Positions 4,290-33,103 of a DNA stretch of 39,807 nt are shown one piece after another. The notes beneath the pieces are model-generated. The model had not been told where the DNA came from. It made no database searches and saw only the letters and a list, made by a program, of their open reading frames with translations. This DNA comes from Candidatus Zhuqueibacterota bacterium (lineage in GTDB: Bacteria > Zhuqueibacterota > Zhuqueibacteria > Residuimicrobiales > Residuimicrobiaceae). Within the stretch, counting starts at the first letter, position 1, and each line of letters begins with the position of its first letter. Both the position numbers and the translations under genes were made by a program. The stretch is taken from the NCBI GenBank assembly GCA_963169875.1, contig CAUJEL010000050.1:1-39807 (forward strand), written 5' to 3'.

Positions 4290-4403
4290 AGCAGGTTATT
4301 TTTCTAGTAAAAAAATCAATGTCCATGAATGCAGATTTCTACTTTGGAATTTCTTCAAATAACGTGCAATACCACGGCTGCCAGAAGATGGGTGGAGCGA
4401 CAG

Positions 4404-8219: not shown

Positions 8220-10943
8220 ATGATCAGAAACGTCACGGTCGCCCTGCTGTGTCTCTTGCTGCTCGCTTTCAGCGCAGTTCAGGCGCAGACCACCGGAAAA
8301 ATTTCCGGACGCGTCACCGACGCCAGGAGCGGCGAAACCCTGACCGGCGCCAATATTCTTCTCGAGGGCACCAGCCGCGGCGCCACCGCGGACATCAACG
8401 GCGAATTTTTCATCATCAACATCGAACCCGGCACCTATACCGTGCGCATCTCCATGATGGGATACGAGACGTTGCGCATGCAGAATGTGCGCGTCTCGGT
8501 CAACCGCACTTTTGAAATCGCTGCCAAGCTGAAAACCACGGTGCTCAGCGGTCAGGAAGTGACCGTGGTGGCCGACCGCGTCGCCGTCAAAAAAGATCAG
8601 ACCAGTTCCGTGCGCAATGTCTCCTCCACCCAGATGGAGATACTGCCGACCGAATCGGTCTCCGCCGTGGTGGCCATGCAGCCGGGCGTGGTCCTGGGCC
8701 ATTTCCGCGGCGGCCGCAGTGATGAGGTCACCTATCTCATCGACGGCATGCAGGTGGACGAATCCTACGGCCGCGGCGGCCGCACCGTCAACGTCGAGAA
8801 GGATGTGGTGGAAGACCTCGAAGTCATCACCGGCATCTTTAGCGCCAAATATGGCAATGCCATGAGCGGCGTGGTCAACGCCATCACCAAGGATGGAGGC
8901 AAAAAATTTCACGGTTCCTTTTCATCCAGCCTGGCCAATTACCTGACACCGCATAACGATATTTTCATCGGACTCGACGACACCGATTTTGCGCGGCGCA
9001 AGGATTTTCAATTTGCACTTAACGGCCCCATTCTCGGCGACCGCTTCACCTTCGCCACCAATGTGCGCTATCAGGATCTCAAGGGCCATCTCAACGGCAT
9101 CCGCCGCTTTCTGCCCGACGATTACAGCGATTTCACCTCCGCCGATTCGACGCAGTGGTACTCGGAGCACAGCGGCGATAACGCCTGGGTGGCCATGAAC
9201 ACCAGCAGGAATTTGAATGTCTGGAGCAAGCTCACCTTGCGGCCGACGAGCAAAATCAAGACTTCACTGCAATACATTCTCAACGATGATGAAGGTCAGG
9301 GTTACAGCCACGGCATGAAGTACAATCCGGATGGCCGCGGCACCGGTTACCACACTTCGCACCTGGCTTCCTTCCAGTTCAATCACATGCTGTCGGAAAA
9401 AGCCTTTTACGAACTCAAGGCTTCCTATGTAAAGGACAACAATGCCAGCTATATGTTCGAGAATCCCTATGATGCGCGCTACATCCATGACCTCTATGCG
9501 CGCAGCGAGGGGCCGGGATTTTCGACCGGCGGACAGGACAAAGGCCACAGCGAGCGCACCATTGAAGACTATACCGCCAAGGGCGATTTCGTCTGGCAGC
9601 TGCACAAGCAGCACAGCATCGAAGGCGGTGCACAGTATTCGCACAAGCATCTTGAAAATGAGTGGTTCAACATTCGCAACAAATATGCGGGTACGGCGTT
9701 CGAGACCCTGTGGGATGTCGATCCGCAGACCGGGAAACGGCGCTATCTCTTCTACGAACCCATGGTCATGCCAGATTCGACGGTCTACCATGAATATTAT
9801 CAGGTAAAACCCGTCGAATTCAGCGCCTATTTGCAGGACAAGATGGAGTTCGCCGAAATGGTGATCAATCTGGGGGTGCGGCTCGACTATTTTGATCCCA
9901 GGATCACCTATCCTTCGCAGTGGCGCAACCCCTCCAATCAGCTCAACTTCACGGAAAATCCGGAAAAAATGAGCCGGCAGATCGAAACGCAGGCGAAATA
10001 TCAGCTCAGTCCGCGGTTTGGCATCTCCTATCAACTGGGGCGCACGGCATTGCTGCGATTCGGTTACGGCCACTTTTTGCAGATGCCGCCGCTCTATGCC
10101 ATGTATAGCAATTATGCGCGGCTGGTGCCACCGGGCGATTATTCAACCACGCTGGGCAATCCCCAGGTCAATGCACAAAAAACCATCCAGTACGAGGTGG
10201 GCCTGTGGCAGGAGGTGATGCCCGAGATGAGCCTGGAAGTAGCGCTCTTTTATCGCGACATTTATGACCTCCTCAGCGCCAAAGTCATGACCACCTATAA
10301 CCAGATCCGCTATGGACTCTACAGCAACAAGGATTACGCCAACGCGCGCGGCCTGGAACTGAAATATGAATATATCCATGGCCGCCTGTCGGTCATGGCC
10401 AACTATACGCTGCAATTCAGCCGCGGCAATGCGGACTCGCCCACCAGCACCTTCAGCCGCGCCGGCGCCAAGCGCGATCCGGTGAACAAGCTCATCCCCA
10501 TGAGCTGGGATCAGCGCCACACCGCCAATGTGACTGTGGGCTACTCTACTCCAAAGTACGGCTCGACTCTGACGCTCTATTACAACTCGGGCAGTCCCTA
10601 CACCTGGAGTCCCCTGGCGGAGAGCGCATTATCGCGCGTTAATCTCTTCCCCAACAACGAGCACATCCCCAGCAGCCTCAGCGCTGATTTGTCCGGCTAT
10701 GCGGATCTGTTCCGCTTTGCGGGCATGAAAGTGCGCGCCAATTTGCTGGTCTACAACCTCTTCGACCAGCTCAATGACGCCTGGGTCAACAGCAACACCG
10801 GCCGCGCCTATACGGCCATCATCCGCGCCACGGATTTGGCGGGCCATCATAGCGATTTCAACACCTATGAAGATCGCATCCACGATCCCACCATGTACAG
10901 CTCGCCGCGACTGGTCAAGGTGGGATTGGAGATGGTATTTTGA
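8220..10943 (+). CDS. TonB-dependent outer-membrane receptor with carboxypeptidase-regulatory N-terminal domain
   Basis: A 907-residue outer-membrane transporter. After a signal peptide (about 1-22) comes a CarboxypepD_reg-like domain (about 26-110: GRVTDARSGETLTGANILL ... GTYTVRISMMGYE). A TonB plug follows (about 115-230: MEILPTESVSAVVAMQPGVV ... VTYLIDGMQVDE ... FSAKYGNAMSGVVNAITK), then a long beta-barrel with alternating aromatic strands that ends in VKVGLEMVF. It would take up ligands using TonB energy, here presumably oligosaccharides released by the neighbouring enzymes (inference). No SusD-like partner is visible; instead a large T9SS-type protein and a PorV-like protein follow. Confidence 0.92.
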   Translation: MIRNVTVALLCLLLLAFSAVQAQTTGKISGRVTDARSGETLTGANILLEGTSRGATADINGEFFIINIEPGTYTVRISMMGYETLRMQNVRVSVNRTFEIAAKLKTTVLSGQEVTVVADRVAVKKDQTSSVRNVSSTQMEILPTESVSAVVAMQPGVVLGHFRGGRSDEVTYLIDGMQVDESYGRGGRTVNVEKDVVEDLEVITGIFSAKYGNAMSGVVNAITKDGGKKFHGSFSSSLANYLTPHNDIFIGLDDTDFARRKDFQFALNGPILGDRFTFATNVRYQDLKGHLNGIRRFLPDDYSDFTSADSTQWYSEHSGDNAWVAMNTSRNLNVWSKLTLRPTSKIKTSLQYILNDDEGQGYSHGMKYNPDGRGTGYHTSHLASFQFNHMLSEKAFYELKASYVKDNNASYMFENPYDARYIHDLYARSEGPGFSTGGQDKGHSERTIEDYTAKGDFVWQLHKQHSIEGGAQYSHKHLENEWFNIRNKYAGTAFETLWDVDPQTGKRRYLFYEPMVMPDSTVYHEYYQVKPVEFSAYLQDKMEFAEMVINLGVRLDYFDPRITYPSQWRNPSNQLNFTENPEKMSRQIETQAKYQLSPRFGISYQLGRTALLRFGYGHFLQMPPLYAMYSNYARLVPPGDYSTTLGNPQVNAQKTIQYEVGLWQEVMPEMSLEVALFYRDIYDLLSAKVMTTYNQIRYGLYSNKDYANARGLELKYEYIHGRLSVMANYTLQFSRGNADSPTSTFSRAGAKRDPVNKLIPMSWDQRHTANVTVGYSTPKYGSTLTLYYNSGSPYTWSPLAESALSRVNLFPNNEHIPSSLSADLSGYADLFRFAGMKVRANLLVYNLFDQLNDAWVNSNTGRAYTAIIRATDLAGHHSDFNTYEDRIHDPTMYSSPRLVKVGLEMVF

Positions 10944-11120: not shown

Positions 11121-14100
11121 ATGAACCGTATTCTTTTTAGATATGCTGTAGTTGCTGCGCTGGTCCTGCCGGGTCTGCTATGGGGTCAGGGGCGCAAATA
11201 CGAGGGACCGGATGATCCTGCCGGTGATCCCGAAGCCATTCGCGAAGGCTGGATGAATGGCAACCGCGTGTTGCTCTATTTCAAGAATACCACGGAACTG
11301 GCCAACTGGCCCAACTTTGATCAATCCAAATGGCCCAACGACTACACCGGGACGGGCATGCACGATGGCATCGCCCTCTACATAGTCGCCAAAGTCCATC
11401 TCGCCAATGATTCCATCCCGGTCACCGATGCGGCGGAGATCGCCAGCCGTACGGATCTGCAGGAGCTCTATTTCTGCCAGACCAGCTATCGTATGCGTAT
11501 GGATTTTTCTAAAGATGGCTTGATTCGCTGGGGACTTTATCCCGTTTTTGGTTATTTCAACAAGGACAACGAATATCCTGCCATGAGCAACCGCGAGGAC
11601 TCCTGGCCCGCCATGGGTTGGCCATCAGCCGGCAAGGAACTGAAGTGGCCGGGCGAATGGGACGGCCGTTTCGGACGCGGCGTCAAATATGCGGACCTCG
11701 AAACCTATTTTGTCGCCAATGATGCGCAGGATCTCGAGTACCTGCAAGCTGATGCACCGCTCAAATATTATCCGCGGCCCGGCGTTAAAATAGGCGAGAA
11801 CGATCCCTCCATCACCACACAACGGGGAGAACCCTGGGGCGGACTCGGCATCCGCGTCAAGGTTCGCTGCTACCAGTGGAATAATCCGCAAACCCGGGAT
11901 GCCATTTTCTGGGAATACGATATCTCCAATATCTCAGATTATGATCTCGCCAATGTCGCTTTCGGCTATTTGCTCGATGCCGGCATCGGCCACCGCGGCA
12001 ACCAGGGCGAAACCGATGATATCGGCTATTTTGACAAATACACCGATATGTCCTACGCCTGGGACTATGACGGCATCGGCATTGGCGGCATCCGCACCGG
12101 CATTCTCGGCATGGCCTTTTTGGAGAGCCCCGGGAGCTGGAATGATGGCGTTGATAATGATGATGACGGCATCACCGATGAGAGACGCGACAATGTGGCC
12201 ACGCAAAAAATTGGGCCCAGCGATGGCATCACGGATATGGATAAATTTCTCAAATGGTACGGTCTGGCACAGGATCAGCTAAAGGAACACTGGAACGCGG
12301 ATGAGGATCAGGATTGGCAGGATGGCAATGATGTGAACAATAACGGCGTCTACGATCTCGGGGAAGATTTTGGCAACGATATCGGCACCGATGGCGTCGC
12401 GCCCACGGATCTCAATTATAACGGTCCGGATGCGGATGGCACGGAATGCAATCACAAACCGGATTTCAAGGAAGGGCTGGGCTGTGAACCCAATTTTGCC
12501 CTGCTGGATATTTCCGAGTCCGATATGATCGGCTTGACCGGCTTTCAGATGCTGCACCATCCCCAGGAAAACGAGCCGCCGTTTGCCGCTTATGACAAGG
12601 AGGCTTATGAACAGATCGCCAGTCCGCGCCTGGAAGAATATTTCGGCGAGCTGGCCAACCTGATCATGACCTTCGGCGCCGGCACCTTTCGCCTGCCGCG
12701 CGGGTTGACCGAACGCATCTCCATGGCGGAACTGCACTCCTACGAGGAACTCTCCGGTTTGAATTCCCCGTCCCATCTGGCACCCTCCCTGTTCGAGAAG
12801 AAACGCATCGTCCAGTTCATCTATGAAAGCGATTACCGCTTTGCCCAGCCGCCCATCATGCCGACGCTGAAGGCCACGGCCGGCGACGGCAAGGTCATCC
12901 TCACCTGGGATAATTTTTCTGATCTCTACACCCGTGAACCCATGCTCAAGGGCGCCAATGATTTCGAAGGGTACAAACTATACAAGGCAACGGACAAATA
13001 CTTTTCCGATGCGGAAAAACTGACCGACATGTATGGCAATCCGATCGGCAAGATGCCGATGTTCCAATGCGATCTCATCGATAATATCAAGGGCGCCGCC
13101 GAGTTCGCCAACATCAACGGTGAGCTCTATTACCTCGGCAAGGATTCGGGCGTCCAACACTATTATGTCGATACCAATGTTCAGAATGGCCGCACCTATT
13201 ATTACGGACTCGCGGCCTACGATTACGGCATCCAGGGTCTGGAAGTGGCCATCATGCCGGCGGAGAACAACATTGTCATCGATCTGGATGAGAGCGAAGA
13301 AATCCGCTTCGTCGGCAGAAATGTCGCCGTGGTGACGCCCGAACAAAAAGCTGCCGGTTACACTGCGCCGCAGATCGATGCGGCGGGCATGCAGCAGCTG
13401 GAGGGCCGCGGCACCGTCCATGCGGACATTCTCGATCAGCATGCCGTGACGCCAAATCACACCTTTAAAATAAAATTCCTGGCCGACACCCTGGGCTATG
13501 CGCGCCGCAATAAAGGCATGCGCCATCCCCTGGATGCCGTCATCGTCAACTCCGGACTGGAAGTTTATGATGTCACCGCGGACTCTCTGGTGTATCGCGA
13601 AACGGTGGATGACTATCCCGGCGATCATTTCATGCACAATGGCAAGACCTACGTGGACGACGGACAGCGCCTCGTCGAATACGATTACTACAATACCGAA
13701 GACGAAATGAGCACGGATATTTTTCAGGGCGTGCAGCTGCGCTTCAAAGTGCCGACGCAGTCGGGCGAGATCGATCCGGGGCGCAGCGGCTGGGTCACCG
13801 GCCAGGGTCCCCTGCTGATCGAACCGAGTCTCTATGAATCCAAGGGATTTCCCTATACCTATGACATCGTTTTCACCAGCTCGGATACCGAAACAGTCTG
13901 CCAGGTCAATCAGGGATCCTATATTTACGACCTGTCCAATTCCACCATGAAAAGTTATCTGCTCGGTCAGGCGTTCAACTTTTACGTCATCAACCGCGCG
14001 GCCGTGGATTCCGCCGGTAATTTCGAACGCCTCGATCTCATCGTCAATGACCTCAACCTCAACAAACAGTACGATATTTTCGAGGATGTGATACTGGCAG

Positions 14101-14636
14101 GCCATACCATCAAAAAGAAGAGCATTCTCGGCAAACCGCTGGTGTACTGGTCCGGCACGATATTCAGCATCGATTTTCGCGGTTACATGAGCGAGGAAGA
14201 GCTGCCCGGACCGAATGATGTCTACCGGGTCAGTTTTCTGCGGCCGTTCGCTGGGCATGATTCACTGATGTTCACGATAAAGCCGGAAGTTGTGCTGGAT
14301 AAACAGAGTCTGGCGTCAGCCCTGGATGATATCCTGGTGGTGCCCAATCCCTATGTGGCGACCGATGCCATGGAGACCGCCATTTCCAATCCCTATCTCA
14401 ACCAGCGCCGTAGACTGATGTTCACGCACATTCCCGCCCAGTGCACCATCAAAATATTCACCGCCAGCGGCATTTACATCGATGAGATCGTCGTGGATAA
14501 TCCGCCCGAAAGCGGCATCGTGCATTGGGACATGCTGACGCGGGAGGGACTTGAGATCGCGGCTGGCGTCTATGTCTATCACGTCAAGACGCCGTCGGGC
14601 GAAGAAAAACTGGACAAATTTGCGGTGATCAAATAG
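11121..14636 (+). CDS. Large secreted protein with Ca-binding-like Asp repeats, FN3-like domain and T9SS-type C-terminal domain
   Basis: An 1171-residue exported protein of a family often seen beside TonB receptors and PorV-like proteins in FCB lineages; its biochemical role is unknown. Signal peptide to about residue 23 (LPGLLWGQ). A long N-terminal beta-rich region runs to about residue 580. It holds two Asp/Asn-rich, thrombospondin-3/EF-loop-like stretches (DNDDDGITDERRD near 345-357; NDVNNNGVYDLGEDFGND near 403-420). A fibronectin-III-like domain starts near 581 (GDGKVILTWDNF). A FlgD-like C-terminal domain closes the protein from about 1070 (VVPNPYV ... AAGVYVYHVKTPSG). It follows the receptor by 177 bp and precedes the PorV-like gene by 40 bp. 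It could be the surface-exposed ligand-binding partner of the receptor, analogous to SusD; that is inference. Confidence 0.8.
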   Translation: MNRILFRYAVVAALVLPGLLWGQGRKYEGPDDPAGDPEAIREGWMNGNRVLLYFKNTTELANWPNFDQSKWPNDYTGTGMHDGIALYIVAKVHLANDSIPVTDAAEIASRTDLQELYFCQTSYRMRMDFSKDGLIRWGLYPVFGYFNKDNEYPAMSNREDSWPAMGWPSAGKELKWPGEWDGRFGRGVKYADLETYFVANDAQDLEYLQADAPLKYYPRPGVKIGENDPSITTQRGEPWGGLGIRVKVRCYQWNNPQTRDAIFWEYDISNISDYDLANVAFGYLLDAGIGHRGNQGETDDIGYFDKYTDMSYAWDYDGIGIGGIRTGILGMAFLESPGSWNDGVDNDDDGITDERRDNVATQKIGPSDGITDMDKFLKWYGLAQDQLKEHWNADEDQDWQDGNDVNNNGVYDLGEDFGNDIGTDGVAPTDLNYNGPDADGTECNHKPDFKEGLGCEPNFALLDISESDMIGLTGFQMLHHPQENEPPFAAYDKEAYEQIASPRLEEYFGELANLIMTFGAGTFRLPRGLTERISMAELHSYEELSGLNSPSHLAPSLFEKKRIVQFIYESDYRFAQPPIMPTLKATAGDGKVILTWDNFSDLYTREPMLKGANDFEGYKLYKATDKYFSDAEKLTDMYGNPIGKMPMFQCDLIDNIKGAAEFANINGELYYLGKDSGVQHYYVDTNVQNGRTYYYGLAAYDYGIQGLEVAIMPAENNIVIDLDESEEIRFVGRNVAVVTPEQKAAGYTAPQIDAAGMQQLEGRGTVHADILDQHAVTPNHTFKIKFLADTLGYARRNKGMRHPLDAVIVNSGLEVYDVTADSLVYRETVDDYPGDHFMHNGKTYVDDGQRLVEYDYYNTEDEMSTDIFQGVQLRFKVPTQSGEIDPGRSGWVTGQGPLLIEPSLYESKGFPYTYDIVFTSSDTETVCQVNQGSYIYDLSNSTMKSYLLGQAFNFYVINRAAVDSAGNFERLDLIVNDLNLNKQYDIFEDVILAGHTIKKKSILGKPLVYWSGTIFSIDFRGYMSEEELPGPNDVYRVSFLRPFAGHDSLMFTIKPEVVLDKQSLASALDDILVVPNPYVATDAMETAISNPYLNQRRRLMFTHIPAQCTIKIFTASGIYIDEIVVDNPPESGIVHWDMLTREGLEIAAGVYVYHVKTPSGEEKLDKFAVIK

Positions 14637-14676: not shown

Positions 14677-15735
14677 ATGAAAAAGATATCCATTACTTAC
14701 CTGCTTTTGGGTTTGTTTATTCTGGCCGCGTCCCTGCCGGCGCAGGAGCCGACCCGCGTCGGCACCACGGCGGCGAATTTTCTTGAGATCGGCTACGGCG
14801 CCGCCGGCTCCGCCCTGGGCGATGCCTATGTCAGCATGGCCGACGATATTTCGGCACTGTACTGGAATCCGGCCGGTCTGGCTGCCATGCGCAAGAATCA
14901 GGCCCAGTTTGTCTATCAACCATGGATCGCCGGCATCAAGACTTCCTTTGCCGGCGTCGGCATGCCGTTGGGCAATTATGGCACCCTGGCCATGGGCTTG
15001 ACCAGCGTCAATTACGGCGACATGAAAGTGACCACCATGGCCATGCAGGAGGGCACCGGCGAGCTCTTTTCCGCCAACGATATGTCCTTCAGTCTCGCCT
15101 ACGCCCGCAACTTGACGACCTGGTTTTCCTTTGGCGCCTCTTTCAAATATATCAGTTCGGAAATATGGCACACCAATGCCTCGGCGTTCGCCACGGACTT
15201 GGGCGTGATCATCAATACCTATTTTTTCTCGCCCAACGGCCGCCGCGAGCAGGGCATGAACATCGGCATGAGCATCTCCAATTATGGCACGCGCCTGCGC
15301 TATGACGGCATCGACTTGACCAGTCCCATCGACATCCTGCCGGACGAGAACGGCAATTTCAGCGATGTGCCGGGGCGGTTTCATCTCTCCGAATGGGAAC
15401 TGCCGCTGATCTTCCGGCTTGGCGTCTCGATGACGCCCTTTTATACAGATCACCATGAGCTGCTCCTCTCAGCCGATGCGATTCATCCCAATAATAACGG
15501 CGAATCGCTCAACCTTGGCGCGCAGTATGCCTTCACTTCCGCGGGTTTTGGCAGGCTCTTTTTGCGCGGCGGCTACAAGGCGCTGTTCATGAAGAATTCT
15601 GAATTCGGCATGACCCTGGGCGCCGGTGTGGAGACCTTTTTGCTCTATAATACCGGCATGAAAATCGAGTACGCCTGGCGCGATATGGGGATTTTGGGCG
15701 CGATCAATTCGTTCGGCGTCACCTTGCTGTTTTAA
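14677..15735 (+). CDS. PorV/PorQ-family outer-membrane protein (UPF0164-like)
   Basis: A 352-residue FadL-like beta-barrel protein. Signal peptide to about residue 22 (LAASLPAQ). The family signature follows: AANFLEIGYGAAGSALGDAY, then VSMADDISALYWNPAGLA, then repeated amphipathic strands and the C-terminal strand SFGVTLLF. In type IX secretion PorV carries C-terminal-domain cargo and helps release or anchor it. Here the gene lies directly after a cargo gene with such a domain. A locus-dedicated shuttle is therefore plausible, though a housekeeping PorV elsewhere cannot be excluded. It is probably in one operon with the receptor and cargo genes. Confidence 0.88.
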   Translation: MKKISITYLLLGLFILAASLPAQEPTRVGTTAANFLEIGYGAAGSALGDAYVSMADDISALYWNPAGLAAMRKNQAQFVYQPWIAGIKTSFAGVGMPLGNYGTLAMGLTSVNYGDMKVTTMAMQEGTGELFSANDMSFSLAYARNLTTWFSFGASFKYISSEIWHTNASAFATDLGVIINTYFFSPNGRREQGMNIGMSISNYGTRLRYDGIDLTSPIDILPDENGNFSDVPGRFHLSEWELPLIFRLGVSMTPFYTDHHELLLSADAIHPNNNGESLNLGAQYAFTSAGFGRLFLRGGYKALFMKNSEFGMTLGAGVETFLLYNTGMKIEYAWRDMGILGAINSFGVTLLF

Positions 15736-16121: not shown

Positions 16122-16256
16122 TTTCCTGATAGAGTATTTTTGCATTTGAAAATTACGCTTTCCTGAAACGCAAGATTCAGTACCATTTCAAAAAACAAAA
16201 AAAGTGCTTCTGCAATGTGAGACATAATAATAGAGTCTGTTATATTGAGGTCTTTT

Positions 16257-18302
16257 ATGAAACTGCATCAGATTGTGATCACGCTGGGCCTGGCCATTTG
16301 CATGTCTTTGCCGACGTTTGCCCAGGAGCGCTATGAGGCGGACTGGAAATCCCTGGACAGCCGCCCGACGCCGCAGTGGTATCGCGATGCCAGGTTCGGT
16401 ATCTTTATCCATTGGGGCCTCTATTCGGTGCCCGCTTTCACGCGCAAAGGCGGCTACGCCGAGTGGTACTGGCGCGGCATCGCAGATACCTCCACTTTTT
16501 TGCACAAATGGCATCGCCACACTTATGGCGAAAAATTCCACTACCAGGATTTTGTGCCCATGTTCAAAGCCGAGCTGTACCAGCCGGAAAAGTGGGCCGA
16601 GCTGTTTGAACGCGCCGGCGCGCGCTATGTGGTGCTCACCTCGAAACATCACGACGGATTCTGTCTCTGGCCTTCCGCGCACAGCTGGAACTGGAACAGC
16701 GTCGATGTGGGGCCGCACCGGGATCTTCTCGGCGATCTCACCACGGCCGTCAAGGCGCGCGGCCTGAAGATGGGGTTCTACTACTCGCTGCTGGAATGGT
16801 ATAATCCGCTCTATCAAAAAGATATCAACCGCTACGTCGATGAACATATGCTGCCACAATTCAAGGATGCAGTCTCCCGCTACCAGCCCTCCATCATTTT
16901 TTCGGATGGCGAGTGGGATCACGACAGCAAGACGCTCAGAAGCGAAGAATTTCTCGCCTGGTTGTACAACGATTCGCCGGCGCCCAAAGATGTGGTGGTT
17001 AATGATCGCTGGGGCGGGGATACGCGTTTCAAACATGGCGGCTATTTCTCAACCGAATACGAAGCCGCGACCAGTGAGCGATCGCAGGAATTCCAGCGCC
17101 GCGGATGGGAGGAGTGCCGTGGCATGGGGCGTTCTTTCGGATTCAATCGCAATGAGGATGTTGAGGATTATCAGACCGCGCAGTCACTCATTCATTTGCT
17201 GATCGAAATCGTCAGCCGCGGCGGCAACCTGCTCCTCAACATTGGACCGGATTCTGATGGAACCATCCCCGTGATCATGCAGGAGCGCCTGCTGCAGATG
17301 GGAGAATGGCTGCAAGTCAACGGCGAAGCCATCCATGGCAGCCGCATCCACCGCAGCCACGGTGAGAGCGATTCGGTGCGTTTCACCCGCAGCGCGGATG
17401 GCTCTTTTGTGTACGCGATCCTGCTGCGCCATCCCGGCCGCCAGGTGCGCCTCAAGACCGTGGAGGCATCACCCGACGTGAAAATCCACCTGCTCGGACT
17501 CGATCGCGATCTCGGCTACCGCCAGGAGGGGGAGGAACTGGTCATCGATCTGCCCGAATCAGCCCTGCGAAAAATGCCCTGCGAACACGCCTGGGTCTTC
17601 AAGATCCCGGCCAAACCCTATGTGGAAGCCCCGGTGCTTCAGACCGCTTCGTTCATCAGCGTGGACAAGCCCCTGAAACTCGCGGTAGCCATCGAGCCGG
17701 CTGATGCGCGCGCTTATTACACCCTGGATGGCTCGGAGCCGACGCCGCAGAGCGCCTCCTGCAGCGTCAGCCTCACGATCCAGGAGAGTGCCCTGTTCAA
17801 GGTGCGCGCCTTCAAAGAGGGCTTTTCGCCGAGTCTGACCGTGCAGCAGCCCGTAAGCATTCTCAACAGCAAAGTGCACGGGCTCGACTATGCCTACTAT
17901 GAAGGGGAGTGGCCGCAGTTGCCCGACTTTACGGCGCTCAAAGCCGTCAAAAAAGGCCGCACCTATGATTTCTCGCTGGCGCCAGTCATGGCACGGGAGG
18001 ATAAATTCGCCCTGACGTTTTCCGGTTTTATCGAAATAACAACTGCGGGCCTGCACCGCTTCTACACCGAATCCGATGACGGCTCGCGGTTGTATATTGA
18101 TGGCCAATTGGTCGTCGATAATGACGGCTTGCATGGCGCCAAAGAGGCCCAGGGAAAGATCGAATTAGCGCCCGGCCGCCATGCATTATTGGTCACTTTC
18201 ATGGAGGCCGGTGGGGCAGAAACCCTCAAGGTGATGTATCAGACGCCCGGATCAACGGTAAAAGCAGCCATTCCTCCATCACTGCTCTATCACAGGAAAT
18301 GA
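16257..18302 (+). CDS. GH29 alpha-L-fucosidase with CHB_HEX and PA14 domains
   Basis: A 681-residue exported retaining alpha-L-fucosidase. Signal peptide to about residue 23 (LPTFAQ). The catalytic domain (about 30-370) contains RFGIFIHWGLYSVPAF (46-61), TSKHHDGFCLW (128-138) and the nucleophile segment IIFSDGEW with Asp217. Glu267 or Glu269 in GGYFSTEYE is a possible acid/base. SDGEW resembles the broad-specificity GH29-A subgroup. A beta-sandwich follows to about 455, then a chitobiase C-terminal (CHB_HEX_C_1-like) module with AYYTLDGSEPTP (about 460-535), then a PA14 module (about 541-675: HRFYTESDDGSRLYIDGQLV) that probably binds glycan. ATG 16257 with GAGG six bases upstream is preferred over the TTG at 16245. 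Likely substrates are fucosylated N- or O-glycans. Confidence 0.92.
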   Translation: MKLHQIVITLGLAICMSLPTFAQERYEADWKSLDSRPTPQWYRDARFGIFIHWGLYSVPAFTRKGGYAEWYWRGIADTSTFLHKWHRHTYGEKFHYQDFVPMFKAELYQPEKWAELFERAGARYVVLTSKHHDGFCLWPSAHSWNWNSVDVGPHRDLLGDLTTAVKARGLKMGFYYSLLEWYNPLYQKDINRYVDEHMLPQFKDAVSRYQPSIIFSDGEWDHDSKTLRSEEFLAWLYNDSPAPKDVVVNDRWGGDTRFKHGGYFSTEYEAATSERSQEFQRRGWEECRGMGRSFGFNRNEDVEDYQTAQSLIHLLIEIVSRGGNLLLNIGPDSDGTIPVIMQERLLQMGEWLQVNGEAIHGSRIHRSHGESDSVRFTRSADGSFVYAILLRHPGRQVRLKTVEASPDVKIHLLGLDRDLGYRQEGEELVIDLPESALRKMPCEHAWVFKIPAKPYVEAPVLQTASFISVDKPLKLAVAIEPADARAYYTLDGSEPTPQSASCSVSLTIQESALFKVRAFKEGFSPSLTVQQPVSILNSKVHGLDYAYYEGEWPQLPDFTALKAVKKGRTYDFSLAPVMAREDKFALTFSGFIEITTAGLHRFYTESDDGSRLYIDGQLVVDNDGLHGAKEAQGKIELAPGRHALLVTFMEAGGAETLKVMYQTPGSTVKAAIPPSLLYHRK

Positions 18303-18497: not shown

Positions 18498-21400
18498 ATG
18501 AAACGCATTGTTTTAGTCTGTATCTTTTCAAGTCTGTTCGCCACCCTGTCAGCCGCACAAGTCAGCGGCATTCCCGGCGCGCAGCGGCTTACCGACTATG
18601 AGGTGGTGGGCGTCGCCAGCGATTATATTCCTGAGGAGCAAGAATCAGCGGGAAAGCTGCATCGTGATATGGCAGCGGATTATATCCTGATGGATCAGAT
18701 CGAGTTGAATGAATATATCCTGCCGGGGCAGCGCTGGGCGGTCTCCTTTCAGGCGGGCTCTCATTCGCTGACGCTGCATCCCTCCAGCGGCTATGCGGGA
18801 CTCAACACGGAGGCGCTGGCGGCGGTTGCGCGCGCCCCCCGATGGCTGCAACGCGACCTGTCGCTGAATCTGAGTCTGCTCACGACGGAATTCCAGTCTG
18901 TTTGGGCGCAGGCGATCCTCGATGCCCAGGATCCTTATTTAGATGAAGTCGTCTTTTCCATCGCGCACTTGTCACCGCAATACCTCATGTCCGGCTACGG
19001 CTCTCCCGCGCTCCTCCTCGACAATGCCCGATCCATCTATGCAAACGATGCGCAGCTTGATTATGTTAAAGTGGTCGATTATGGCTCCTCTGTGACGGAC
19101 CCTGATTATTATACCACAACGAAATATAAATCCATCCATGCCGGTGTGGTGGTGGATGTGGAAGCGCCGCGGGAGGTTTATTATTGGTATCTGGTCTATC
19201 CGCGCGTCACCAGTGAGATTCCCGCCTATGTCGATCCGGCAATGGGGGAAGACAACGGTGCGCGCAACAACAACCTGGCCGCGCCGCCGGCGGGCGTGTT
19301 CTGGCGGGACTGGCTCTTCAACCATGCGGATGATGGCTACCCCATGCTGCGCGAATCGCTGCGAGGCTGCACCGTGGTGTTTGATGGCACCCGCGGAAAG
19401 CCCGATGCGAACATGACTGCCATGGGACGGCTCAATACCTGGATGGAAAAGACGCTGCAGTTTGATTCCAGAGATGAGAGACCGCATCAGCCGGTGCGCA
19501 TCTACCGCGTGCACATGGGCCGCTGCGGGGAGTGGTCTGATTTGCGCAACGCCGCGGCGCGCAGCGCCCTTATTCCCTGCACCAGCATCGCCTCCTATTC
19601 CACGGATCATGTCTGGAATGAGTTCTGGGATCGCGAGTGGTATCACTGGGACAATGAGACCAACTATCCCCTGATGTACATCATGAGCTGGGGCAAAGTT
19701 TTCGGCAGCGTCTTTGAGATTCGCAGCGACGGCAATCTGACTGCTGTTACGCCGCGCTACGCCCGTGGTATCTGCTACATCGATCTCTTCATCAAGGACG
19801 CCAACAACAAGCCCGTGGATGGCGCCGAGGTGACGCTCTACACCAAAGATCTTGAGAGCCCGGACTTGTGGTGGGATATGTACGCCATCACCGACGACAA
19901 GGGCATGGCCACCTTTGTGGTGGGAAAAGACAGAAGTTATTACGTATCAATCAACTCAGCCATTGGCGCCTATCCCAAAGCCGGGGGTGTGGTGGAAGTG
20001 GTCAACGGCGCCATCAGCGGCCGGGATTACAGCAAATTGATCAAATTGACGGGCGTCAAACCGGCGCCAAAATGGACGAGCACCGCCCCGCCCGTAGATG
20101 CTGTAGAGGACTATTATTTACAAGTGGATTTCAGCGCACCGGCGCAGCTTCGCAACGGCGCCATCCGCTTCGATGATGTCCGCCTGGGCTCTCAGCTCTA
20201 TGCCCGGGAGGAGGACGGGGGCATCGACTTCTATTTTGCAGATTCGGTGAATCATGCAGCCGCCGGGAAAAAAGCAGCTTTTGCCGCGGTGGGACTGCTG
20301 CCCGACTCGTTGACCGGAAAAGGCTGGCTCAGTCTGCCGGCCGCGGAGACCTGGTATGCGGTTTTTGCCAATGAGCAGAACAGCCGCAATATCCAACAGG
20401 TCGCGGCTACGGTCAAGCTCTTTGGCCGCGCGGCCATGCCGGCCCGGCGTTTGCTGGACTGCACGGCGAACTGGAACTGGATATCTTTCAATGTGGCTCC
20501 GGCGTCCATGGCCGTGGCCGATGTGCTGGCGTCGCTGGGGGACAATGGCCTGAAGATCAAGTCAAGCCAGGGTGATGCGGTCTATGAGAGCGGTAAAGGG
20601 TGGAGCGGCACCTTGACCGCCCTTGAAGCCGGATCGGGCTATTTGCTGCAGCTCGCTCAGCCGCAGTCTTTAACCATATCCGCTCCAGCCTTGCCAGTCG
20701 ATCAACCGATACCATTGGCGCCGGGGTGGAATTGGATCGCGTACCTGCCCCATGTTGCCATGCCGGTGGAGGAAGCGCTGGCCTCCATCGCCGGCCAGGT
20801 CTATCAAATCAAGGGACAGCAGCGTTCGGCCATGTATGTGGACGGGCAATGGATCGGCGATTTGACGCTGCTCGAGCCTGGTCAGCTCTATAAGATCAAT
20901 ATGAAAACTGCCGCCACGTTGAACTGGCCCAATCCGCAGCCGGCGCTGGGCAAGCTCGATCGGGCGGCCGCGGACAGCGAGGTGCTTTCAGGAACGCCGG
21001 CCAACATGGTGGTGATCGCCCGGGTGAGCAGCGCGCATGTTTTTGATCAGGTGCACATCATGGACGACCAGGGCCGCTGCCGCAGTCATGGCGTGGCGAT
21101 TACCGGCACAGGGCTCAACTATTTCACGGTTGTGGGTGAAGTGGAAAACGAAACATTATTCTGCGAACTGCGTGACAGTGCCTCGGGATGGCAGACACAG
21201 TGCCAGCAGAAACTAACGTTCAAGGACCATGCGACCCTGGGCGCACTGGCGGCGCCTGTGAATCTCTCGGATGTCAATCTGGTTTTCAGACTAATGCAGA
21301 ATCATCCCAATCCGTTTAACCAGGGAACCACCATAGACTATACGTTGCCCCAGGCAGGGGAGGCGAGTCTGGTGATTTACAACCGGCTTGGGCAGCGGGT

Positions 21401-21557
21401 GCGGGTGCTCATTGCTGGCGTACAAGAGGCCGGGCAGGGAACGATCATATGGGATGGAAACGACGGCAATGGGCAGCCGGTGGCGGCGGGCTTGTACATC
21501 GCCGAACTGAAGAGTGGCACCTATGCGAAAGCGCTGAAAATGGTGCTGTTGCGATAA
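18498..21557 (+). CDS. Secreted transglutaminase-fold protein with PNGase-like triad, WNW repeats and T9SS-type C-terminal domain
   Basis: A 1019-residue exported protein. Signal peptide to about residue 21. An unassigned N-terminal region is followed by a transglutaminase-like core: GRCGEWSDL with Cys343, DHVWNEFW with His371 and WYHWDN with Asp385. The GRCGEW and DHVW forms and the spacings (28 and 14 residues) are closer to cytosolic peptide:N-glycanase than to generic transglutaminase domains, as I recall those families. Next come an Ig/carboxypeptidase-regulatory-like module (about 422-510), two tandem 85-residue repeats starting at NWNWISF (W659) and GWNWIAY (W744), and a FlgD-like C-terminal domain from about 929 (HPNPFNQG ... 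AAGLYIAELKSG). GGGAGAG precedes ATG 18498. It is flanked by glycan-trimming enzymes, so N-glycan release is a reasoned hypothesis; protease or crosslinking activity are alternatives. Confidence 0.78.
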   Translation: MKRIVLVCIFSSLFATLSAAQVSGIPGAQRLTDYEVVGVASDYIPEEQESAGKLHRDMAADYILMDQIELNEYILPGQRWAVSFQAGSHSLTLHPSSGYAGLNTEALAAVARAPRWLQRDLSLNLSLLTTEFQSVWAQAILDAQDPYLDEVVFSIAHLSPQYLMSGYGSPALLLDNARSIYANDAQLDYVKVVDYGSSVTDPDYYTTTKYKSIHAGVVVDVEAPREVYYWYLVYPRVTSEIPAYVDPAMGEDNGARNNNLAAPPAGVFWRDWLFNHADDGYPMLRESLRGCTVVFDGTRGKPDANMTAMGRLNTWMEKTLQFDSRDERPHQPVRIYRVHMGRCGEWSDLRNAAARSALIPCTSIASYSTDHVWNEFWDREWYHWDNETNYPLMYIMSWGKVFGSVFEIRSDGNLTAVTPRYARGICYIDLFIKDANNKPVDGAEVTLYTKDLESPDLWWDMYAITDDKGMATFVVGKDRSYYVSINSAIGAYPKAGGVVEVVNGAISGRDYSKLIKLTGVKPAPKWTSTAPPVDAVEDYYLQVDFSAPAQLRNGAIRFDDVRLGSQLYAREEDGGIDFYFADSVNHAAAGKKAAFAAVGLLPDSLTGKGWLSLPAAETWYAVFANEQNSRNIQQVAATVKLFGRAAMPARRLLDCTANWNWISFNVAPASMAVADVLASLGDNGLKIKSSQGDAVYESGKGWSGTLTALEAGSGYLLQLAQPQSLTISAPALPVDQPIPLAPGWNWIAYLPHVAMPVEEALASIAGQVYQIKGQQRSAMYVDGQWIGDLTLLEPGQLYKINMKTAATLNWPNPQPALGKLDRAAADSEVLSGTPANMVVIARVSSAHVFDQVHIMDDQGRCRSHGVAITGTGLNYFTVVGEVENETLFCELRDSASGWQTQCQQKLTFKDHATLGALAAPVNLSDVNLVFRLMQNHPNPFNQGTTIDYTLPQAGEASLVIYNRLGQRVRVLIAGVQEAGQGTIIWDGNDGNGQPVAAGLYIAELKSGTYAKALKMVLLR

Positions 21558-28040: not shown

Positions 28041-28059
28041 TCATGTGAGGATATCCGCC

Positions 28060-29481
28060 ATGCACTACCATTCTTTTCCGGTCTCTCTGCATCTGTGTTG
28101 TTTGCTTCTTATGGCCTGTTCCCTGCTGGTGCGCAGCCAGGAACTGCCGCCCGCTGTTCAGGCCAACCTCGATGACTGGCAGAGCCGCAAATTCGGCCTG
28201 ATGATGCATTGGGGACCCTACAGCCAGTGGGGCGTGGTCGAGTCCTGGTCCATCTGCTCCGAGGATGAACCGTGGTGCAGCCGCAACGGCCGCAATTACG
28301 TCGAGTACGTCGCGGAATATCAAAAACTGCCGCGAACCTTCAATCCAGTCCGTTTTAATCCTGAAAAATGGGCTGAAGCGGCCAGAGCGGCAGGGATGCG
28401 TTATGTCGTGTTCACCACGAAACATCACGACGGTTTCTGCATGTTCGACAGCCCGGGCACGGATTACAAAATCACGGATCCGTCATGCCCGTTTCACAGC
28501 CATCCGCGGGCGGATGTCACCCGGGCCCTCTTTGATGCCTTCCGAAAAAATGATTTTCTCATTGGCGCCTATTTTTCCAAGCCCGACTGGCATTCGCCCG
28601 ATTACTGGGCGCCCGAGTGGGCAACGCCCGACCGCAACGTCAATTACGATCCCGCCAGATACCCGCAACGCTGGCAGCGTTTCAAGGAATATACTTCCAC
28701 CCAGATCGAAAAACTCATGCGCGATTACGGCCGTATCGATATCCTCTGGCTCGACGGCGGCTGGGTGCGTCCCCAAGCGAGCATCACCGATGACATTCGC
28801 GCCTGGGCCGGCATGAAACCCTATGATCAGGATATTGATATGGCCGCCATTGCCGCCATGGCGCGGCGCCAGCAACCAGGCTTGATCATGGTCGACCGCA
28901 CCGTGACCGGTCCCTACGAAAACTATCGCACGCCGGAACAGCAGGTCCCCGGGCAGCCGCTCGATTATCCCTGGGAAACCTGCATGACCATGGGCAATGC
29001 CTGGTCCTTCAATCCCCATGATCATTACAAATCGCCGCGGCAGTTGATCCATCTGCTGGTGGACATCGTCGCCAAAGGCGGCAATTTCCTGCTCAATGTC
29101 GGACCCGACGCCAACGGTGAGTGGCCAGAGGCGGTGTATGAACGCCTCAAGTCCCTGGGCCAATGGATGGCGGTGAACCAGGCTGCCATCTATGATACGC
29201 ATCCCCTGGCGCCTTATAAATCAGGCAATATCTGTCTCACCCAAAGCAAAACCGGCCGCCGCTTCGCCATCTATCTGGGGGCTGAAACCGAGGAGACCCT
29301 TCCCGAAACTGTCGCATTGCCCATGCTGCCCGGAAAAGCACCCCAAAAGCTGCGCCTCCTGGGCTATGTAAAGGATCTGTCCTGGAAGCGCACCGAGCAT
29401 GGCATCCGCATCCATGTGCCCGATTTCGTACGCCAGCAGCCGCCGTGCCAGGACGCATGGGTGTTTGAGTATATTGAATGA
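28060..29481 (+). CDS. GH29 alpha-L-fucosidase, single-domain
   Basis: A 473-residue exported fucosidase. The N-terminal hydrophobic stretch contains LLLMACSLL, a weak lipobox with Cys20. Catalytic motifs: KFGLMMHWGPYSQWG (44-58), TTKHHDGFCMF (119-129), nucleophile segment IDILWLDGGW with Asp232, and YRTPEQQVP with Glu293 as probable acid/base. The TPEQ form is like the GH29-B subgroup, which prefers branched alpha-1,3/1,4-fucose next to galactose. It ends soon after the C-terminal beta-sandwich (DAWVFEYIE) and has no extra binding module, unlike its two paralogues in this window. GAGG lies nine bases before ATG 28060. The candidate operator at 28006 lies immediately upstream. Confidence 0.92.
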   Translation: MHYHSFPVSLHLCCLLLMACSLLVRSQELPPAVQANLDDWQSRKFGLMMHWGPYSQWGVVESWSICSEDEPWCSRNGRNYVEYVAEYQKLPRTFNPVRFNPEKWAEAARAAGMRYVVFTTKHHDGFCMFDSPGTDYKITDPSCPFHSHPRADVTRALFDAFRKNDFLIGAYFSKPDWHSPDYWAPEWATPDRNVNYDPARYPQRWQRFKEYTSTQIEKLMRDYGRIDILWLDGGWVRPQASITDDIRAWAGMKPYDQDIDMAAIAAMARRQQPGLIMVDRTVTGPYENYRTPEQQVPGQPLDYPWETCMTMGNAWSFNPHDHYKSPRQLIHLLVDIVAKGGNFLLNVGPDANGEWPEAVYERLKSLGQWMAVNQAAIYDTHPLAPYKSGNICLTQSKTGRRFAIYLGAETEETLPETVALPMLPGKAPQKLRLLGYVKDLSWKRTEHGIRIHVPDFVRQQPPCQDAWVFEYIE

Positions 29482-29490: not shown

Positions 29491-29544
29491 ACACGCTCGC
29501 TCCCAAACTCCAGCTTGGGAGTGACAAGAGCTGCCAGAGCGTGT
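29491..29544. repeat. REP-like nested inverted repeat
   Basis: ACACGCTC (29491-29498) pairs with GAGCGTGT (29537-29544), enclosing a second hairpin CTCCCAA (29500-29506) / TTGGGAG (29515-29521). It sits in the 165-bp gap between two fucosidase genes and has no T-run, so it is not a standard terminator. Such nested palindromes are typical of dispersed intergenic repeats or mRNA-stabilising hairpins. Confidence 0.55.
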
Positions 29545-29646
29545 CCAAGCCGGAGCCTGAGCACAAGACTTAAAAATGCTGAAGCTTGTACTCTAGGAAA
29601 AGATCAGACGGGTAATGCATGGCAACCTCACAAAGGAGGATGTCTC

Positions 29647-31707
29647 ATGAAAAAAATAACAGTATTTATTATCTTCATCACTTTGCTTATGATTCTTTCT
29701 CTGGCCCGGGCGGAGACGAAGACGGCGTTTGATGAACGCATGCGCTGGTGGCGCGATGCCAAATTCGGTCTTTTCATCCATTGGGGACCCTACGCCGTTC
29801 CCGCGGGCGTCTATAACGGGCAGAACAGCAGCAGCAGCGCCGAATGGCTCATGTATAATGAGAATATCCCGGTGCCGGTCTATGAAGAATACGCCCGCCA
29901 GTTCAAGCCGGTGCAGTTCGATGCCACTTACTGGGCGAAATTGGCCAAGGCTGCGGGCATGAAGTACCTCATCATCACCTCCAAGCACCATGATGGCTTT
30001 TGCATGTGGAACTCCCGCGTCAGCGGGTACGATCTGTTCGATTTTTCGCCCTTCAAGCGCGACGTCCTCAAGGAACTCGCAGCGGCCTGCAAGAAACAGG
30101 GCATTCGTCTCGGTTTCTATTATTCCATCATGGACTGGCACCACCCGGATGCCAAATATGAGAATTTTCCCACCTATCGCGACACCTATATGAAACCGCA
30201 GCTTCGCGAGCTGCTGACCCAGTACGGTAAAATTGCCGTGCTGTGGTTCGACGGGGAGTGGATCGAAGAATGGAGCGAGGGACAGGGCAAGGACCTTTAC
30301 CGCTTTGTGCGCGGTCTGCAGCCGCAGATCATCATCAACAATCGCGTCGGCAAAGGACGCAGCGGCATGCAGGGCATGAGTGAAGACGCCACTTCGGCGG
30401 GCGATTTCGGCACGCCGGAACAGGAAATCCTCAATCAGGGTAATGCCGCCAGGGATTGGGAATCCTGCATGACCATGAACGATTCCTGGGGTTATAAAAA
30501 GTTCGATGAAAATTGGAAATCCAGTGAAACGCTGATCCAGAATTTGATCGAAGTGACTGCCAAAGGCGGAAACTATCTCTTGAACGTGGGGCCGACCGCT
30601 GCAGGATTAATCCCCGATGAGAGCATCTACCGGCTCAGGGAAATGGGCCGCTGGTTGCGCGTCAACGGCGCAGCCATCTATGCCACGCGCACGTTGCCGG
30701 AATACAAAGAGGGCGAAAACATTTACTACACAAGAAGCAAATCCGGCGCTACCATCTATGCCATTCATCTCGGCTGGCCGGGAAAACAGGTCAAATTGCG
30801 CTACGTGGCGCCTAAAAAGGGATCCAAAATATATCTTCTCGGATACAAAAAAGCCCTGACCTGGCGAAACAACCGCAGCGGCGAAATGGTCATCACATTG
30901 CCGGCGTCGCTGCAAAGGGCCGCCAATCGTCCCTGCAAATACGCCTACGTGTTCAAAATAAACGGCAGGCAGCTGAAGGTGAGCGCTGCGCCGCAGATCA
31001 GCACCAGCAAGCATGCCAGCACGGCGCGCGGCCTGTTCCTCGAGCAGGAGACCGTGCGGCTGACTTCTCCTGAACCGGCCGCAACTATTTATTACACTCT
31101 GGACGGTTCAACGCCCACTTCAGCATCGTCAAAGTATCAGGACGCCATCACGCTTTCCGAATCAATTGAACTCAAGGCTGTGGCGCTGGAGACGGGCAAG
31201 GTGGCCAGCCCGGTGGCCGCCGCGCGATTCACCAGGATCAATCGCGTGAAACGTCTCATGCTGGAAAAGCCGCCTTCGGTCAAATACGCCGGTTGGGGCG
31301 AATTGTCGCTCATCAACGGTGAGTACGGCGGTCTCGATTATCACGATCCGCAATGGGTCGGATTTGAGAAGGACGATCTGGATGCAACCATCGATCTGGG
31401 CGCTCCAAGGCTTGTGCACCAGATCAGGTTGAGCTGTCTGGAAGATCAGAATGCCTGGATATTTTTGCCGGCCGAGATACAGCTCTTCTTTTCGGTCGAT
31501 GGCTTGGAATATATCCAGTCCGGCGACTGGAAGGCTGCGGTGAAACCTTCTGCAAAGGCACAGACGTACGAGCTTTCCATCGCGTTCACACCCCAGGAGG
31601 TTCGCTACATTCGTTTAAAAGTCATAAACAGGGGGTTATGTCCGGAGTGGCACAAAGGCACCGGTGGCAAGGCGTGGTTATTTGCCGATGAAATCATCAT
31701 AGAATAG
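29647..31707 (+). CDS. GH29 alpha-L-fucosidase with CHB_HEX and discoidin-like domains
   Basis: A 686-residue exported fucosidase. Signal peptide to about residue 22 (LSLARA). Catalytic motifs: KFGLFIHWGPYAVPAG (39-54), TSKHHDGFCMW (111-121), IAVLWFDGEW with nucleophile Asp202 and FGTPEQEI with probable acid/base Glu258. The C-terminal half adds a CHB_HEX_C_1-like module (about 454-531: TIYYTLDGSTPTS) and an F5/8 type C (discoidin)-like module (about 540-686: ATIDLGAPRLVHQIRLS ... YIRLKVINRG). The same two modules end the GH20 protein at 33291. AAAGGAGG precedes ATG 29647; an upstream in-frame extension lacks a ribosome site. The GH109 gene follows after 10 bp, so they form an operon. Confidence 0.93.
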   Translation: MKKITVFIIFITLLMILSLARAETKTAFDERMRWWRDAKFGLFIHWGPYAVPAGVYNGQNSSSSAEWLMYNENIPVPVYEEYARQFKPVQFDATYWAKLAKAAGMKYLIITSKHHDGFCMWNSRVSGYDLFDFSPFKRDVLKELAAACKKQGIRLGFYYSIMDWHHPDAKYENFPTYRDTYMKPQLRELLTQYGKIAVLWFDGEWIEEWSEGQGKDLYRFVRGLQPQIIINNRVGKGRSGMQGMSEDATSAGDFGTPEQEILNQGNAARDWESCMTMNDSWGYKKFDENWKSSETLIQNLIEVTAKGGNYLLNVGPTAAGLIPDESIYRLREMGRWLRVNGAAIYATRTLPEYKEGENIYYTRSKSGATIYAIHLGWPGKQVKLRYVAPKKGSKIYLLGYKKALTWRNNRSGEMVITLPASLQRAANRPCKYAYVFKINGRQLKVSAAPQISTSKHASTARGLFLEQETVRLTSPEPAATIYYTLDGSTPTSASSKYQDAITLSESIELKAVALETGKVASPVAAARFTRINRVKRLMLEKPPSVKYAGWGELSLINGEYGGLDYHDPQWVGFEKDDLDATIDLGAPRLVHQIRLSCLEDQNAWIFLPAEIQLFFSVDGLEYIQSGDWKAAVKPSAKAQTYELSIAFTPQEVRYIRLKVINRGLCPEWHKGTGGKAWLFADEIIIE

Positions 31708-31717: not shown

Positions 31718-33103
31718 ATGTCAATGCAGAATCAGGATCAAAGACGCAATGAAGAGTCCGTGGATCGCCGTTCTTTCCTAAAGTCGGGCAGTCTGGCAGG
31801 ATTGGGCGCCCTGGCCGCGGCATCAATGCTGGGGTGTGAGGGGCGCACCCATGGCAAAAAGGAGGCGCCCGAAAAGCTGTTCTCATCAGCTCCGCTGCAA
31901 AAGGTGCGCATGGCTTTCGTCGGTGTCGGACTTCAGGGCACCAGTCATGTCCGTAATTTTTTAAAGATTGAAAACGTCGAAATCGCCGCCCTCTGCGATA
32001 TCAAAGCCGACCGGGTTGCCGCAGCGCAAAAGCTCGTCGTCGATGCCGGCCGTCCCGAACCGCGCGGCTACAGCCGCGGTGAGACCGATTTCATCCGCCT
32101 CTGCGAAGAGGAGGATATCGATCTGGTTTTTACGGCCACGCCCTGGGAGTGGCATGTGCCTGTTTGCGTTGCTGCCATGAAAAACGGCAAGCATGCAGCC
32201 ACCGAAGTGCCGGCCGCTGTCACCATCGAGGAATGCTGGGAGCTGGTGGAGACCGCTGAGAAATATCAGAAGCATTGTGTGATGATGGAGAATTGCTGCT
32301 ATGACCGCCAGGAGCTCCTCATCCTCAATCTCGTGCGCAAGGGCATGCTGGGAGAAATCATCAACGCCGAGGCGGGCTATCTCCACGACCTTCGTCCGGT
32401 GAAATTTAACAATGAGTATGAGGCGGTGTGGCGCACCCCCCATTCCATACGCCGCGACGGTAATCTTTACCCCACCCATGGACTTGGACCGGTGGCGCAG
32501 TGCATGAACATCAACCGTGGCGATCAATTTGATTACCTCGTATCAATCAGCAGCGTGTCGCGTGGTTTGAATCTCTATAGTGAATCCCGCTTTGGCAGTG
32601 ATGATCCGCGCGCCAGACAAAAGTACGCCCTCGGCGATATCAACACCAGCCTGATCCGCACCATGGGCGGCAAGCTCATCACGTTGATCCATGATACGTC
32701 TTCACCGCGGCCCTATACGCGCATTAATCGTGTGCAAGGGACCAAAGGCATCGCGGAAAAATGGCCCCATCGTGTGTACATCGAAGGAAAAAGCAATCCC
32801 CACCAATGGGATGCCATGGAAACCTATTTTCCAGAACATGAACACCCTCTGTGGAAAGCGCTTGAAGATCAATCCAAAGGCGCGGGGCATGGCGGCATGG
32901 ATTACATCGAGTGCTACCGGCTGATCCACTGTCTGTTGCACGGTCAGCCCATGGATATGGATGTCTATGATGCGGCCGCCTGGTCCTGTGTCTCGGAACT
33001 GAGTGAGCGCTCCGTAGCCAAACGCGGGCGTCCCATGGAATTTCCCGATTTCACGCGGGGGCGCTGGAAAACCTGGCCGGCCCTGGATATTGTCACTTTG
33101 TAA
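31718..33103 (+). CDS. GH109-type NAD-dependent glycosidase (Gfo/Idh/MocA fold), likely alpha-N-acetylgalactosaminidase
   Basis: A 461-residue protein exported by Tat: twin arginines R17-R18 in DRRSFLK, followed by a hydrophobic stretch and a possible lipobox MLGC (Cys40). A Rossmann nucleotide site VGVGLQGTSHV lies at 68-78. GH109 landmarks are YPTHGLGPVAQCMNINRGD with Tyr251 and His254 (catalytic pair positions in the family), GHGGMDYIE, DMDVYDAAAWS and FPDFTRGRW. GH109 enzymes hydrolyse alpha-GalNAc through an NAD-dependent oxidation-elimination cycle. The expected target is alpha-GalNAc in mucin-type O-glycans or blood-group A structures. Other Gfo/Idh/MocA glycosidases look similar, so exact specificity is open. 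An AGGAGG site precedes the ATG, 10 bp after the fucosidase stop. Confidence 0.87.
   Translation: MSMQNQDQRRNEESVDRRSFLKSGSLAGLGALAAASMLGCEGRTHGKKEAPEKLFSSAPLQKVRMAFVGVGLQGTSHVRNFLKIENVEIAALCDIKADRVAAAQKLVVDAGRPEPRGYSRGETDFIRLCEEEDIDLVFTATPWEWHVPVCVAAMKNGKHAATEVPAAVTIEECWELVETAEKYQKHCVMMENCCYDRQELLILNLVRKGMLGEIINAEAGYLHDLRPVKFNNEYEAVWRTPHSIRRDGNLYPTHGLGPVAQCMNINRGDQFDYLVSISSVSRGLNLYSESRFGSDDPRARQKYALGDINTSLIRTMGGKLITLIHDTSSPRPYTRINRVQGTKGIAEKWPHRVYIEGKSNPHQWDAMETYFPEHEHPLWKALEDQSKGAGHGGMDYIECYRLIHCLLHGQPMDMDVYDAAAWSCVSELSERSVAKRGRPMEFPDFTRGRWKTWPALDIVTL

Follow-up and report, generated by a model that had tools for sequence, protein, structure and literature searches.

An exported transglutaminase-fold protein with likeness to cytosolic peptide:N-glycanase in an N-glycan-type locus of Candidatus Zhuqueibacterota

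The window, by which we mean the whole analysed stretch of 39,807 nucleotides, carries a gene for an exported transglutaminase (TG)-fold protein that resembles cytosolic peptide:N-glycanase (PNGase) and lies among glycoside hydrolase (GH) genes. The genes of the locus are listed below, with synteny and identity given relative to the genome of a close relative (G052) unless another genome is named.

4329..5600, + strand: ROK-family regulator, syntenic
5700..6659, + strand: GH130 mannoside phosphorylase, syntenic, 76% identical
6736..8097, + strand: GH47 alpha-1,2-mannosidase, syntenic, 75% identical
8220..10943, + strand: TonB-dependent receptor, conserved in order
11121..14636, + strand: 1171-aa protein with no assigned family, in the locus (85% in G052; about 49% in G055, in three copies)
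14677..15735, + strand: PorV/PorQ-family outer-membrane protein of the type IX secretion system (T9SS), conserved in order
16245..18302, + strand: GH29 alpha-L-fucosidase directly upstream of the TG gene, 195 bases before it
18498..21557, + strand: exported PNGase-like protein of TG fold, 1019 aa plus stop
21673-23262, - strand: GH39, right after the TG gene
28045..29481, + strand: GH29 alpha-L-fucosidase
29515..31707, + strand: GH29 alpha-L-fucosidase
31718..33103, + strand: GH109 family protein
33279..35657, + strand: GH20 beta-hexosaminidase
35691..38558, + strand: GH20 beta-hexosaminidase with a T9SS tail

The first-pass annotation of this DNA had placed the TG gene among GH29, GH47, GH20 and GH109 genes; the neighbourhood is as described (three GH29, one GH47, two GH20 and one GH109), with GH130, GH39, ROK, TonB and PorV genes in addition. 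Behind the TG gene, the GH39 gene on the opposite strand breaks the plus-strand run of glycan genes. The window GH47 is similar to processing mannosidases, and the GH130 to TM1225 and the mannoside phosphorylase UhgbMP; because of these resemblances the locus points to N-glycans, the high-mannose type included. The 1171-aa protein (11121-14636) had no match in Pfam or the PDB; copies of it lie at L111:3542-7186 and 7722-11279, it is triplicated in G055, and it is conserved beside the TonB and PorV genes. We regard it as a candidate glycan- or glycoprotein-binding protein.

Four genomes of the phylum can be read on both sides of the TG gene (the window genome, G052, G055 and G065), while the contigs of G035, G043 and G044 end too soon. 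GH29 is the immediate co-directional neighbour of the TG gene in all four. The pair recurs in G052 at 74% and about 70% identity; in G055 the GH29 and TG genes share a strand and overlap by about 20 bases; and in G065 the TG gene precedes GH29, and a ROK gene lies upstream. These genomes each hold 4-8 GH29 genes, and by our estimate chance adjacency of GH29 and TG genes is well under 1% per genome. The order ROK-GH130-GH47-TonB-1171-aa protein-PorV is kept in G052 at 75-87% identity, on a separate contig that ends there; the G055 contig with the TG gene also holds GH3, GH20, TonB, PorV and the copies of the 1171-aa protein, and in G035 a PorV gene lies beside the TG gene. Conservation of an N-glycan-type locus across genera is supported by these arrangements.

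The open reading frame of the TG protein (18498-21557, plus strand) starts with ATG at 18498, with an in-frame GTG upstream at 18486, and is organized as follows.

18498..18557, + strand: apparent signal peptide, about residues 1-20, MKRIVLVCIFSSLFATLSAAQ, judged by eye from the sequence
18780..19067, + strand: helical N-terminal region, residues 95-190, kept across the TG family (AlphaFold2 helices and family alignment)
19410..19664, + strand: transglutaminase core, about residues 305-389 (Pfam PF01841, AlphaFold2, Foldseek)
19524..19526, + strand: Cys343 codon, predicted nucleophile (alignment with yeast Png1 and family alignment)
19608..19610, + strand: His371 codon (same alignments)
19650..19652, + strand: Asp385 codon, a position mostly Glu in the wider family (same alignments)
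19659..19787, + strand: post-triad segment PLMYIMSWGK...VTPRYA, common to PNGases and not to the other bacterial TG proteins tested (alignment, profile split)
19788..20087, + strand: Ig/transthyretin-like beta domain, residues 431-530, behind the catalytic core (model strands; 3e8v and Big_1-type matches)
20460..21272, + strand: insert, about residues 655-925, shared by the window protein with its nearest relative and missing from shorter homologues (alignment)
21306..21554, + strand: type IX secretion sorting domain (TIGR04183 and FlgD_ig)

Transglut_core (PF01841) covers residues 305-389, counted from the GTG, with an E value of 3.7e-8 (34 bits vs a curated cut-off of 23), and is found in all 71 members of the family alignment at E values up to 0.01. 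The PNGase-like stretch runs to about residue 430, another family-conserved region lies between the Ig-like domain (about 530) and the insert, and the insert has partial matches elsewhere in the same genome. The C-terminal sorting domain scores above its cut-off (TIGR04183, 27 vs 23 bits), which, with the signal peptide seen by eye, bears out the earlier call of an exported, T9SS-tailed protein. About 150 tails of the T9SS sorting type occur in the window genome, which shows type IX export to be widely used there. The TG protein is probably exported by this system and located at the surface.

The Cys343-His371-Asp385 triad lies within GRCGEW, DHVWNEFW and WYHWD exactly as had been annotated. 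These residues align with yeast Png1 C191, H218 and D235, which we take to be the yeast triad, with numbering counted along the alignment from that anchor. Cys343 is invariant in 81 of 81 aligned family members and His371 in all 79 that reach its position, the third position is Asp in 16 members and Glu in 63, and E375 and W381 are nearly invariant over the 81. Judged from the alignment, conservation of the triad across the family is far beyond chance. XPC/Rad4, which shares the fold at a distance, is an inactive DNA-binding protein, and the window protein might likewise be a catalytically dead binding protein; XPC does appear as a distant profile match, but the invariant Cys and His and the always acidic third residue in about 80 divergent members make this very improbable indeed.

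The family to which the window protein belongs is large, unnamed and secreted, and mostly has Glu as the third residue. A scan of genome contigs gave at least 171 loci, 80 of the 171 being kept, in Cloacimonadota, KSB1/Calditrichota, Bacteroidota, Ignavibacteria, Zixibacteria, Eisenbacteria, a Phycisphaerales bin and Thermoplasmatota archaea. Among the Glu-type members sampled, no glycoside hydrolase was found among the 25 commonest neighbour families (110 neighbour proteins); the Asp-type minority adjoins GH29 in the 4 of 4 genomes readable on both sides. Asp or Glu alone was rejected as a marker of glycan loci, as Asp types occur in archaea and others lacking GH29 and GH20 genes of the window type. 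An independent origin of the two GH29-linked TG groups was likewise not upheld, a single clade being compatible with the data (p-AU 0.49). One subfamily across several phyla (L073, L076-L079, L081, L085, L087, L089, L091 and L094-L096) carries GTCSVHS and NHKINEFW where the window protein has GRCGE and DHVW, and keeps the Cys, the His and the acidic third residue. Asp-type homologues L069, L072 and L074 come from Methanomassiliicoccales and other Thermoplasmata archaea, and L074 has a hydrophobic stretch at its C-terminus.

Cytosolic PNGase (Png1/NGLY1, EC 3.5.1.52; 2f4m, 1x3w, 3esw) is the best solved relative of the TG domain by both sequence and fold. A phmmer search of the whole PDB with the enzyme domain returned cytosolic PNGases only (mouse 3.3e-7; yeast 6e-5 and 7e-5), and a profile of 71 homologues matched PNGase at 3e-10 (mouse) and 1e-8 (yeast), with XPC at 1.8 and with 8qox and 3e8v matched only beyond the catalytic residues. 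The AlphaFold2 model, built from the 71-sequence alignment, has a pLDDT of 94.5, and with it Foldseek gives mouse PNGase the top two places (2e-6 and 3e-6; 2f4o at 1.8 A over 102 columns), with the yeast enzyme at 8e-5 for the PNGase-GlcNAc2 complex (3esw) and 6e-4 for 1x3w. The structure prediction and comparison with Png1 that the first-pass annotation had proposed thus gave PNGases as the best enzyme matches by fold, and none of the searches placed the domain in a family with known protease or crosslinking activity, the outcome it had named as speaking against its claim. Identity to PNGase in the Foldseek alignments is 23-29% over 100-160 columns, and the TM-scores of these matches, normalized by query length, are low (0.20-0.23) because only the core of the 441-residue model aligns.

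Transglutaminase 3, XPC and 3isr are ranked by Foldseek after the PNGases. The fold held in common with transglutaminase 3, and the reported transglutaminase activity of an Arabidopsis PNGase (PMC9102325), would suit a cell-surface protein-crosslinking or deamidating transglutaminase unrelated to glycans; the conserved N-glycan gene linkage of the window clade and the PNGase-specific post-triad stretch argue against such an enzyme, which we consider highly improbable. L097, L098 and L016, TG proteins of which two come from the window genome and one from a relative, served as controls. L097 prefers a TG structure (6g49) with no PNGase match, the TG part of L098 prefers 3isr over PNGase (4e-4 vs 0.11), and L016 prefers 3e8v, with PNGase only at 0.024.

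Splitting the family profile, with the mouse and yeast PNGase segments taken from the PDB search alignments, located the likeness. Core and post-triad part together gave 47.8 bits for mouse and 43.5 for yeast PNGase, 35.2 for L016, 29.5 for L100 and at most 12 for the others. The Cys343-Asp385 stretch alone put the bacterial L016 first (24.2 vs 8.8 bits for mouse PNGase), and the post-triad part alone matched PNGases only (mouse 19.2, yeast 11.8 bits), with next to nothing for other bacterial TG proteins. A ranking of the bacterial TG family as level with PNGase on the whole profile (47 vs 45 bits) was undone by this division, and the H-x-W-x-E motif with its following W was dropped as a chitobiose-specific mark, since other bacterial TG proteins carry both. 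By profile comparison, the PNGase-specific part of the window protein is the stretch after the triad. In view of the split-profile result, the earlier argument from PNGase-like motifs was right in its outcome, PNGase being the best solved relative, yet it leaned in part on letters (RCGE, H-x-W-x-E, W...D) common to other bacterial TG proteins.

Both the window protein and cytosolic PNGase have the TG fold with an ordered Cys-His-Asp in GRCGE, DHVW and W..D, and the PNGase post-triad stretch PLLYE.GWGKK ... VT.RY has its counterpart in the window protein. Unlike cytosolic PNGase, the window protein is exported and T9SS-tailed, with another N-terminal helical region and a C-terminal Ig domain; it also lacks zinc CXXC pairs, has Thr at the Arg328 equivalent and has no detected PUB or PAW domain. 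Zinc-binding CXXC pairs are a described feature of the PNGase core (PMC9102325), and none occurs in the catalytic region of the window protein. The Arg of human PNGase position 328, which is mutated in some NGLY1 disease alleles (PMC9102325), is replaced by Thr362, a position variable across the TG family. PUB and PAW domains, for which a Pfam search of the window protein gave no match, are also absent from fungal and plant PNGases (PMC9102325) and are therefore not essential to a PNGase. The same search gave no match to PF09112 or PF09113 (PNGase F type).

The GRCGEES ... GACEPEP lipoprotein-like TG family (L016/L109 and L112; the 3e8v fragment from Bacteroides fragilis) is related in its TG core (35 and 29.5 bits against the TG-core profile of the window protein's family) and has, as in the window protein, an Ig domain behind it, but lacks the PNGase-like post-triad stretch. 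The loci concerned are L109:7937-10555 with L109:10636-13743, and L112:7541-10171, all on the minus strand. In G052 this second TG-fold family adjoins a GH38 alpha-mannosidase on a contig shared with GH20, GH94 and PNGase F-type genes, and the window genome has a copy too. It may be another N-glycan enzyme.

Enzymes of the PNGase F and PNGase A types are unrelated to the TG-fold PNGase in fold and catalytic residues. These secreted amidases share with the window protein the expected reaction and role, i.e. the release of N-glycans for nutrition by secreted enzymes (PMC10154615). No GH18 or GH85 was found among the scanned window genes, in keeping with the earlier remark that no such releasing enzyme was visible; the remark holds for the window and not for the genome, which has one GH18 and one PNGase F-type gene on other contigs, while GH85 was not found in it. 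The PNGase F-type gene of the window genome (contig C205, L110:1943-4177, minus strand) has a FlgD-type tail; that of G052 (C116:32862-33251) lies near GH94, GH20, GH38 and the second kind of TG protein. By eye, the near neighbour L110:3-746 of the former resembles the same GH94 protein. The TG protein occurs in 7 of 82 genomes of the phylum and the PNGase F-type gene in 3, all of them within those 7 (p 4e-4); GH47 occurs in 6, 3 of them within the 7 (p 0.007). Leaving out G052 gives p values of 0.005 for the PNGase F-type gene and 0.04 for GH47, all of these being indications only as the genomes are related.

The main rival is a cysteine protease or peptidase of TG fold at the cell surface, which would open glycoproteins or trim the peptide part of glycopeptides and so give the exo-glycosidases and the PNGase F-type enzyme access to the glycans; the PNGase F-type gene in the same genome fits this reading. 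Predicted cysteine proteases belong to the TG superfamily, 3isr having been deposited as one, and most family members (in Cloacimonadota and others) lie away from glycan genes, as would suit a general protein degrader. The best solved relatives are PNGases and not 3isr, and the window subclade is tied to fucosidase and mannosidase genes, so we rate a protease as somewhat unlikely. Distinctly less probable is a related amide hydrolase that serves the N-glycan pathway but takes a different substrate, such as one confined to short GlcNAc-Asn or GlcNAc2-Asn stubs or to free glycosylasparagines left by exo-trimming; the exo-acting enzymes abundant in the locus (GH29, GH20, GH109, GH47) could shrink the glycan beforehand, but a macromolecular substrate better fits an exported, probably surface-exposed enzyme.

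We infer that the window protein is a surface TG-fold deglycosylase, probably a PNGase, at a probability of about 0.5, because fold and context agree while the bond cleaved is deduced and two PNGase features are missing. Against a PNGase stand Thr362 in place of Arg328, the missing CXXC pairs, the identity of 23-29%, a Cys-Asp part closer to the bacterial TG family, the PNGase F-type gene already in the genome, and a wider family that is mostly Glu-type and without GH neighbours. The protein probably works in a PNGase-like way; we do not place it within the Png1 family. In the proposed scheme, the type IX system would export the protein, which would then stay attached to the cell surface or be released from it. 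Its TG-fold domain would hydrolyse the core GlcNAc-Asn amide bond of eukaryotic-type N-glycoproteins, as cytosolic PNGase does, with Cys343 attacking the Asn side-chain carbonyl, the glycosylamine leaving and water releasing Asp. The GH29, GH47, GH20, GH109 and GH130 enzymes of the locus would then pare down the glycan, whether freed or still bound, and the pieces would be taken up through the TonB receptor.

The N-glycan loci of gut Bacteroides likewise combine a surface release enzyme, exo-glycosidases and uptake (PMC9522356, PMC10154615), but release there is by GH18, GH85 or PNGase F-type enzymes, with no TG-fold enzyme mentioned. A review of bacterial N-glycan breakdown names GH18, GH85 and PNGase enzymes only, and no TG-fold bacterial one (PMC10154615); our search, confined to open-access literature, likewise turned up no bacterial PNGase of the TG type. 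If the PNGase assignment is true, a surface TG-fold PNGase would be a mechanistically different class of bacterial N-glycan release and might furnish a new tool for freeing glycans; it would also mean that bacteria feed on N-glycoproteins with the chemistry of human NGLY1. A wider proposal, which we hold to be doubtful, is that all members of this secreted family of prokaryotes, in Cloacimonadota, KSB1/Calditrichota, Bacteroidota, Ignavibacteria, Thermoplasmatota and other groups, are extracellular TG-fold deglycosylases that share ancestry with the eukaryotic ERAD enzyme and form a third route of N-glycan release besides GH18/GH85 and PNGase F. The family offers many divergent homologues in which Asp- and Glu-type active sites may be compared.
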